A DNA stretch of 64,000 bases from Zingiber officinale. Its lineage: Eukaryota; Streptophyta; Magnoliopsida; Zingiberales; Zingiberaceae. The notes under the pieces are model-generated. The model ran no database searches, was not told where the DNA came from, and saw nothing but the letters and a program-made list of their open reading frames with translations. The stretch lies in assembly GCF_018446385.1 (NCBI RefSeq), contig NC_056002.1:12286894-12350893 (forward strand), read 5' to 3'. Below are positions 20,708 to 22,210 of this stretch, in pieces (position 1 is the first letter of the stretch; every line of letters begins with the position of its first letter). The translations under genes and the position numbers were made by a program.

Positions 20708-22210
20708 ATGCAGATGTCTGCCAGGAATCTCAATGACGATGGCAAGTCCATCACCCTTAAGTTGCAGAGTTCAGACTTCATCTTTGACAACTTTAAGGCG
20801 AAGATCCAGGATGAGGAGGGCATCAGTATCACCTTCGACATGTTGCAGAGACCGAGTCAAAGAATGCGAATCTTCATCGAGCTTGCCTCCACTTCCAGGT
20901 TCAGCATAATTGCGCTGAAGGTTAAGAGCTCAGACACCATCGACAACGTCAAGGCCAAAATCCAGGACAAGGAGGGCATCCCCCCGGACCAGCAAAGGCT
21001 CGTCTTCGCCGGCAAGCAACTTGAGGACCACCGCACCTTGGCAGACTACTACATTCAAAAGGGATCGACCCTCCACCTTGTCCTCCGCGTTGGCATGCAA
21101 ATTTTCGTCAAGACTGTCCGCGGCAAGACGATCACCCTCGTGATGGAGAGCTCGGACACCATCGACAATGTCAAGGCCAAAATCCAGGATAAGGAGGGCA
21201 TCCCCCCGGACCAGCAAAGGCTCATCTTCTTCGACAAGCAACTTGAGGACGACCGCACCTTGGCGGACTACTGCATTCAAAAGGGATCGACCCTCCACCT
21301 TGCCCTCCGTGGTGGCATGCAAATTTTCGTCAAGACCCCCGGCAAGACGATCACCCTCGAGGTGGAGAGCTCAGATACCATCGACAATGTCAAGGCCAAA
21401 ATCCAGGACAAGGAGGGCTTCCCCCCGGACAAGCAAAGGCTCAACTACGCTGGCAAGCAACTTCAGGATGGCTGCACCTTGGCCGATTACAACATTCAGA
21501 AGGAATCTACCCTCCACCTTGCCCTCAGCCTCAGCTTCCTCTGTAGCATGCAAATTTTCGTCAAGACTGTCCGCGGCAAGACGATCACCCTCGAGGTGAA
21601 GTGGTCGGACACCATTGACAATGTCAAGGCCAAAATCCAGGATAAGGAGGGTATACCCCCGGACCAGCAAAGGCTCATCTTCTTCGACAAGCAACTTGAG
21701 GACGACCGCACCTTGGCGGACTACTGCATTCAAAAGGGATCAACCCTCCACCTTGCCCTCCGTGTTGGCATGCAAATTTTCGTCAAGACCCCCGGCAAGA
21801 CGATCACCCTCGAGGTGGAGAGCTCGGATACCATCGACAATGTCAAGGCCAAAATCCAGGACAAGGAGGGCTTCCCCCCGGACAAGCAAAGGCTCAACTA
21901 CGCTGGCAAGCAACTTCAGGATGGCTGCACCTTGGCCGATTACAACATTCAGAAGGAATCTACCCTCCACCTTGTCCTCCACGGTGGCATGCATATTTTC
22001 ATCAAGACAATCCACTACAAGACGATTACCCTCGAGGTGGAGAGGTCGGACACCATTGACGATGTCAAGGCCAAAATCCAGGACAAGGAGGGCTTCCCCC
22101 TAAACCGGCGAATTCTCGTCTTATCCGGCAAACAACTGCAGGGCGGCCGCACCTTGGCGGACTACCGCATTCATAATGGTTCGATCCTCCACCTGGTTAT
22201 CCGCCCGTAA
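20708..22210 (+). CDS. diverged poly-ubiquitin-like protein, 500 aa, seven units
   Basis: A single uninterrupted frame of 500 codons. Unit 0 (residues 1-52, [14 protein letters not shown]...) is a changed ubiquitin N-half. Unit A (53-129) has a rewritten first strand (MRIFIELAS). Units B (130-203) and D (281-354) start [15 protein letters not shown] and carry RLIFFDKQ. Units C (204-280) and E (355-427) start [15 protein letters not shown], two residues short in the first loop, with Ile44 changed to Asn (RLNYAGKQ). Unit F (428-500) is the most changed. B-C and D-E are near copies, so a two-unit block of about 450 bp was duplicated. The ubiquitin tail LRLRGG is shortened. Only the B/C (LRGG) and E/F (LHGG) junctions keep Gly-Gly; others read LRVG, LCS, and the end is IRP. 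Most lysines, including those at 48 and 63, are kept. Release of usable ubiquitin looks unlikely, so it may be a stable poly-domain protein or a young decaying gene. Confidence 0.65.

Follow-up and report, generated by a model that had tools for sequence, protein, structure and literature searches.

Ubiquitin is among the most conserved of proteins, because its surface serves many partners. The ginger (Zingiber officinale) genome contains a long open frame of ubiquitin-like units in which most of the cleavage sites of a polyubiquitin are missing, and this raises the question of whether such a gene is simply a polyubiquitin in decay. We analysed the 64,000-nucleotide stretch of DNA containing this frame (hereafter the window; C17:12286894-12350893), together with its counterpart on the other haplotype (C18). 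Our results favour the view that the frame, referred to here as gene C, is not just a decaying polyubiquitin and that selection maintained the ubiquitin fold in its family once the role of ubiquitin had been abandoned.

Units and junctions of gene C

Gene C lies at positions 20708-22210 of the window, on the forward strand, and its translation is open from ATG to TAA over 500 aa, as a preliminary description of the locus had stated. The protein matched the Pfam ubiquitin family (PF00240) in six stretches with an E value of 1.6e-161, so its likeness to ubiquitin is not due to chance. Seven ubiquitin-like units had been described; they are ubiquitin-derived, but they are not seven equal units, the frame consisting of an N-terminal half unit of 52 aa (approximately ubiquitin residues 1-39, then 13 more residues) followed by six units of 77, 74, 77, 74, 73 and 73 aa. 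Units 3-4 and 5-6 form a duplicated dimer. The features of the gene are the following:

20664-20707 (+): pyrimidine-rich stretch ending in CAG and abutting the ATG; common to genes B and D (20664-21300 resembles 11922-12550, and 20664-20745 resembles 29775-29856)
20708-20863 (+): unit 1, the half unit of 52 aa; common to B and D; contains a TAG in the C18 allele
20864-21094 (+): unit 2, 77 aa; three additional residues near the beta1-beta2 loop; ends LRVG
21095-21316 (+): unit 3, 74 aa; ends LALRGG, with a tail two residues short
21317-21547 (+): unit 4, 77 aa; I44N, one-residue deletion at position 8; ends LSLSFLCS
21548-21769 (+): unit 5, 74 aa; counterpart of unit 3 in the duplicated dimer; ends LRVG
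21770-21988 (+): unit 6, 73 aa; counterpart of unit 4 in the duplicated dimer; I44N; ends LHGG
21989-22207 (+): unit 7, 73 aa; the most diverged unit; ends IRP, then TAA
22211-22768 (+): 3' flank, homologous to that of gene A (10698-11672 resembles 21856-22759)

The stretch before the ATG resembles the 5'-UTR introns of plant polyubiquitin genes.

When the frame was cut at the unit starts, the junction ends read, in order, QR, VG, GG, CS, VG and GG, and the C-terminus IRP. Gly-Gly is thus retained at only two of the six junctions (both GG-M), in agreement with the preliminary description. The alignment with ubiquitin likewise bore out the shortening of the tails, which lack two or three residues in units 2, 3, 5, 6 and 7, and showed the tail of unit 4 to be altered to LSLSFLCS. 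At position 44, the Asn reported for two units was located in units 4 and 6; units 2 and 7 have Val, and Ile remains only in units 3 and 5. Leu8 is substituted or absent in each of the six units and Val70 is replaced with Ala in units 3, 4 and 5; at least one residue of the Leu8-Ile44-Val70 patch is changed or missing in every one of the six units. Most lysines were said to remain, and 39 of the 42 expected in the six units do. Over residues 1-72, the four distinct units (2, 3, 4 and 7) differ from ubiquitin by 15, 10, 9 and 24 changes, respectively. The net length differences between ubiquitin and the units of genes B and C are whole codons, several of them at places common to both genes, in a codon alignment that is blind to compensated shifts and includes a gene chosen for being open.

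Gene C resembles plant polyubiquitin genes in having head-to-tail ubiquitin-derived units in one frame and a CAG before the ATG, in sharing its 3' flank with the near-canonical gene A, and in differing in repeat number between alleles; its descent from a polyubiquitin gene is supported by DNA identity (see below). However, polyubiquitin precursors consist of full 76-aa units of near-invariant sequence, with Gly-Gly at each junction and in the final unit, whereas gene C begins with a half unit, continues with units of 73-77 aa that carry 9-24 changes per distinct unit, and lacks Gly-Gly at four of the six junctions and at the C-terminus.

A tandem array of ubiquitin-derived genes

The preliminary description considered gene C alone. 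The window contains four ubiquitin-derived copies (A-D), all on the same strand; those other than gene C are:

10698-11070 (+): gene A, 1.6 units of near-canonical ubiquitin with the end RLRGGQ; disrupted in its 5' part on this haplotype
11967-12572 (+): gene B, 201 aa, a half unit and two units; ends LRLRG, without Gly76
29775-29933 (+): gene D fragment, the half-unit start joined to a unit end; a longer copy is present at C18:12246084

Genes B, C and D have in common an unusual half unit, MSA(K/R)NLND(D/N)GKS, and genes C and A have a common 3' flank. Gene B is open on both haplotypes (C18:12230782) and is diverging rapidly. On C18, gene A consists of one intact ubiquitin frame (12225758) with CAG directly before the ATG. 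Comparison of the full units of gene A on C17 and C18 gave differences at 19 of about 52 synonymous sites, and the two units therefore probably represent separate ancestral repeats.

A whole-genome DNA search with the gene C region yielded 48 matches, corresponding to the array and to ubiquitin genes elsewhere. Identity was 80 per cent with gene A, over a match that takes in the 3' flank (C17:12297591-12298565); with canonical ginger polyubiquitin genes it was 76-81 per cent. In the protein search, a loose first pass that could miss rarer relatives, the matches starting at residue 1 (the half unit) were found, among the 87 listed, at five places, all of them in the array on C17 and C18. Many top-score ubiquitin units are present elsewhere in the genome. 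The ubiquitin matches were often paired on contigs 1/2, 7/8, 9/10, 13/14, 15/16 and 17/18, which fits a haplotype-resolved assembly; the assembly report describes it as haplotype-resolved, with 11 chromosome pairs, and nanopore-based (PMC8342452). Among the papers listed by our literature searches, none dealt with the array.

Comparison of the 2.7 kb upstream of gene C with 22 of 32 loci (the ten array loci being omitted) revealed only one dispersed repeat, near the polyubiquitin gene on C2, among loci that extend at most about 1.5 kb past the match, some with less true upstream DNA, and three of 9 kb. Since these loci reach little upstream, gene C may still have a promoter in common with other ubiquitin loci.

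The C18 allele of gene C

There are no disabling changes in the window frame. The C18 allele (from 12235424) has the same unit order with an extra dimer, but it carries a GAG to TAG stop in the half unit, a frameshift in the third VR-type unit caused by a C-run one base longer (seven C, where the sister unit has six), and a deletion of the counterpart of about 22105-23339 of the window, which truncates the last unit and removes the 3' end. The frameshift could be an error of the nanopore assembly, whereas the stop and the deletion are changes of another type. The two haplotypes probably show gene C at different stages of loss.

An assembly artefact, in which the odd units would stem from the collapse or mis-polishing of repeats, would be consistent with the position of the C18 frameshift inside a run of seven C and with the nanopore basis of the assembly (PMC8342452). 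We consider it very improbable: similar units are found on both haplotypes, with differences at 2.5 per cent of sites over units 1-4 and at 3.8 per cent over all matched units, and the changes spare the protein core, as described below, which errors would not do.

Sparing of the buried core

We counted distinct amino-acid changes (position and residue) relative to ubiquitin residues 1-72 in 17 units of genes B and C from both haplotypes; the last C18 unit is partial, and the count excludes gene D, the two pieces of the frameshifted C18 unit and all four half units. The core was defined as 14 residues, an assumed list and not one from measured burial. In the array, 4 of 100 changes affected the core, where five mutation models predict 13.7-18.5 (P no higher than 0.0011). 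The deficit was also found for gene C of the window haplotype alone (2 of 52; 7.1-9.6 expected, P 0.0019-0.021) and for gene B alone (1 of 49; 6.7-9.1 expected, P 0.0006-0.0069). It persisted when the units of the unit-2 type, whose N-terminus may be the product of a single replacement, were set aside (4 of 76; 14.1 expected, P 0.0005), and over residues 18-72 of all units none of the 63 changes was in the core (9.6 expected). In a control restricted to the same residues, Ile, Leu and Val had undergone 4 changes at 14 buried positions and 14 changes at 5 exposed ones (P 1.2e-5); the corresponding counts for gene C of the window haplotype alone were 2 and 8 (P 0.0008).

Recopying from canonical ubiquitin was considered as the cause of the spared core and was rejected, because the core codons are synonymously as diverged as the others. 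In the 15 pairs formed by six window units, synonymous divergence was 0.35 in the core and 0.31 outside it, with pN/pS values of 0.15 and 0.66; some of the synonymous change may be older than the loss of constraint. These pN/pS values are therefore not rates, a point that leaves the contrast between core and non-core unaffected.

Near-canonical units in decay were used as a further control, and 3 of their 14 changes fell in the core (Fisher P 0.039 versus the array), in a small sample of six units from two homologous loci (C9 and C21) and one gene A unit. The two loci (L030, C9:4098001-4107000, and L031, C21:57719001-57728000) are polyubiquitin loci 96.4 per cent identical over 4.1 kb; their contigs are not a haplotype pair, one of the loci has two in-frame TAG codons, and both end in STLLFALYK followed by a stop. 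A further 14 ubiquitin-family places were examined as pseudogene controls and none was used: five had no match to ubiquitin at the threshold, and the nine that matched comprised six other ubiquitin-like domains (30-40 per cent identity) and three intron-split ubiquitins.

The 96 non-core changes were examined by region in a set of ten tests, among which the beta1-beta2 loop showed an excess (19 changes; 8.0 expected, P 0.0004) that was weaker without the unit-2 type (11 of 76; 5.2 expected, P 0.016) and was not found in the last unit of gene B (part 3) alone (3 of 27; 1.8 expected). Changes were fewer than expected at non-core helix positions (7 of 96; 18.4 expected, P 0.0013; without the unit-2 type, 7 of 76; 11.9 expected, P 0.075) and at lysines (6 of 96; 12.0 expected, P 0.038). 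No excess of change was found on the Ile44 face (18 of 96; 16.6 expected).

The family of genes B and C thus did not decay at random, given the sparing of its core, and there is statistical support for selection to keep the ubiquitin fold after these genes left the ubiquitin role. All the comparisons are within the ginger genome, and core sparing places this selection no more precisely than after the departure of the units from canonical ubiquitin.

Allelic divergence of genes C and B

Between haplotypes, substitution was 0.045 in the 2.6 kb upstream of gene C and 0.032 in its first 1,063 bases, which contain no allelic gaps, against 14 in 2,561 bases upstream, where the DNA is richer in A and T and may itself favour gaps. 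The codon model applied to 465 codons of the C alleles gave an omega of 0.41 (2dlnL 6.99). However, in a neutral simulation with the transition bias taken from 570 flank differences (kappa 4.4), synonymous shares of 0.27-0.32 were obtained, and with observed shares of 0.33 (units 1-4) and 0.30 (units 1-6) neutrality of the C alleles is not rejected. The two approaches disagree. We give more weight to the simulation, because it makes fewer assumptions about base-composition equilibrium, and we do not claim present constraint on gene C from the omega value. The dN/dS check against orthologues recommended in the preliminary description, performed here between alleles, is therefore divided between constraint (codon model) and neutrality (simulation). 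The same description regarded the long open frame as a sign of recent selection or of very recent loss of function. Core sparing after divergence agrees with selection, but the open frame itself is weak evidence, since only 0.57-1.29 stops would be expected from the allelic changes of C under neutrality. Among the changes between the C alleles, no clear sparing of the core is seen (2 of 19; 3.0-3.5 expected, P 0.29-0.41).

The alleles of gene B differ by 0.093 in the coding frame and by 0.036-0.051 in the flanks. In part 3, there are 28 amino-acid and 3 synonymous differences; synonymous changes are rarer than under neutrality (P 0.003, one of ten comparisons; P 0.045-0.052 for the whole of B), and the codon model did not reject an omega of 1 (2dlnL 1.24). 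This rapid divergence could be the result of gene conversion among copies or of diversifying selection. None of the 60 allelic changes of B created a stop (P 0.155-0.185 under neutrality), and 1 of 31 affected the core (4.9-5.7 expected, P 0.013-0.033). Between B and C, the half unit and unit 2 showed a synonymous excess over neutrality with P values of 0.007-0.037 in a model without a CpG term, and of 0.087-0.098 for the two parts when such a term was included; the codon model gave an omega of 0.22-0.23 for unit 2.

These data bear on two alternative explanations. The first is an ordinary pseudogene, a tandem duplicate drifting without selection since its origin and open on one haplotype by chance. 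The stop, frameshift and lost 3' end of the C18 allele are consistent with it, as are the near-neutral synonymous shares of C, the unremarkable openness of its frame and the broken A and D copies nearby. Such drift would not have spared the core, in the array as a whole or in gene C of the window haplotype alone. Genes B and C also have whole-codon length differences in common, whereas among 58 indels in the flanks only 10 have a length divisible by three, a contrast to be read with the caveat that C was picked as open and that compensated shifts are invisible. Gene B is open on both haplotypes despite its 60 changes, although the P value for this is not low. Drift since the origin of the array is in our opinion unlikely. 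For gene C as it stands today, the test proposed in the preliminary description was that stops or neutral dN/dS in relatives, together with a lack of transcripts, would mark a pseudogene; the disabled C18 allele and the neutral-compatible allelic changes bear this out by half and make gene C lean to a pseudogene by that test, and core sparing speaks against this verdict at the level of the family.

The second explanation is that the units are expressed as working ubiquitin variants, with altered surfaces that would block deubiquitinases or the ubiquitin-directed proteins of pathogens in an arms race. The fold residues are kept while binding residues and the beta1-beta2 loop have changed, the rapid divergence of B and the 28:3 ratio in its part 3 would be expected under such a regime, and engineered ubiquitin variants that block a viral protease and deubiquitinase suppressed the virus in Arabidopsis (PMC11819560). 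However, gene conversion among copies could raise the divergence of B, the codon test of its part 3 does not reject an omega of 1, the loop is not enriched in that part, the Ile44 face has no excess of changes and the C18 allele of C is broken. We regard this explanation as quite improbable.

Predicted properties of the products

Deubiquitinases grip residues 72-76 of ubiquitin in extended form, and E1 requires Gly76. The C-terminal diGly is absent from gene C, which ends IRP, and from gene B, which ends LRLRG here and LHCRG on C18. Given these requirements, the lost tails and terminal diGly suggest that the gene C product should be a string of ubiquitin-like domains, uncut at most or all junctions and not activatable for conjugation; the tails of gene C thus lend support to the uncut string proposed in the preliminary description. 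Binding to ubiquitin receptors, also proposed there, loses ground, since the Leu8-Ile44-Val70 patch is hit in each of the six units, and ordinary receptor binding through this patch is unlikely.

Gene C might still supply ubiquitin by cleavage at the two junctions that read GG-M. We consider this scarcely credible: the tails at both of these junctions are two residues short, the units carry changes such as L8V, A46F or I44N, and top-score ubiquitin units are plentiful elsewhere in the genome.

The units fill the frame, and all 19 Pfam families listed for the gene C protein were weaker than ubiquitin; no UBA or UBX effector domain was among them. Structure prediction, suggested in the preliminary description, yielded a fold for a single unit but not for the whole protein, whose single-sequence model was poor (pLDDT 42) and is not used. 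From an alignment of nine window sequences, unit 7 was modelled as a ubiquitin fold (mean pLDDT 89, TM 0.93 to 1ubq), a result that adds little because a nine-row alignment made it likely anyway. The 50 solved folds closest to this model include ubiquitin-variant entries and ordinary ubiquitins.

On balance, it is probable that the array consists of tandem polyubiquitin duplicates that no longer undergo processing or conjugation and retain little of the binding patch, with the fold kept by selection. According to this scenario, a polyubiquitin gene related to gene A would have duplicated locally, giving rise to a small tandem family with C as its largest member, and this family would have evaded the homogenising process by which ubiquitin repeats stay alike. 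The loss of the terminal Gly75-Gly76 and of most cleavable junctions would then have produced a fixed string of domains, not activated by E1 and poorly cut by deubiquitinases, in which the fold remained under selection while exposed binding residues and the beta1-beta2 loop would be free to change. Gene B is the member more likely to be still working. Gene C is probably now relaxed or being lost, because its C18 allele is broken and its recent changes looked neutral in the simulation, although the omega of its alleles and their gap-free first 1,063 bases point to constraint; it may be a short-lived invention now disappearing. Since the lysines are kept, its product, if translated, is a candidate for the ubiquitin-fusion-degradation route, on which it would be handled as an uncleavable ubiquitin fusion and be short-lived. 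More speculatively, the array could be a natural family of ubiquitin variants with a conserved core, in which the surfaces of B evolve at least at the neutral DNA rate and the products act as dominant binders or decoys, perhaps against pathogen deubiquitinases; we think this rather improbable.

Relationship to other divergent ubiquitins

The polyubiquitin-like genes UBQ7, 8, 9 and 12 of Arabidopsis (the subject of Callis et al. 1995) contain polyubiquitin repeats with amino-acid differences, in which most residues and junctions are reportedly kept. By this description, gene C would resemble them in varying from ubiquitin and differ in being more diverged, with junctions, tails and patch residues lost. 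Our analysis favours the view that the array adds to the known divergent polyubiquitin duplicates a case in which the fold was kept under selection after the ubiquitin role was lost. A duplicate freed of the ubiquitin surface yet held to the fold is a natural separation of two constraints and, if the B or C protein is made, a natural counterpart of laboratory ubiquitin variants.

In Plasmodium, a codon insertion has spread among the repeats of divergent ubiquitins (PMC10457151). Both cases are natural escapes from ubiquitin conservation, but the Plasmodium changes described there occurred in the parasite's few ubiquitin genes, one per type, whereas the ginger genes form a redundant family in tandem, from which terminal diGly is absent. 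Engineered ubiquitin variants blocking a viral (tymovirus) protease/deubiquitinase suppressed that virus in Arabidopsis (PMC11819560); they combine the ubiquitin fold with an altered surface, as is predicted for the ginger units, and come from laboratory libraries, whereas the ginger units are natural and in tandem. The uncleavable ubiquitin fusions that serve as ubiquitin-fusion-degradation substrates (PMC3507821) resemble the predicted gene C product in having non-cleavable ubiquitin moieties with lysines kept, the uncleavability of gene C being deduced from its tails; gene C has no foreign protein, and its first moiety is only a half unit.

Other features of the window

An Rfam scan of the window gave nothing at gathering score. 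Between genes B and C, positions 13123-14190 form an inverted repeat of about 1.07 kb, about 86 per cent self-complementary, which is perhaps a mobile element, and overlapping direct repeats are clustered upstream of gene C (16866-18056). Retrotransposon remains are represented by a gag-like frame (2536-3708, reverse strand; PF03732) and an integrase piece (43258-43785, reverse strand; PF00665, PF25597). An open frame with R3H and SUZ domains (62359-63069, forward strand; PF01424, PF12752) is probably part of an ordinary host gene.
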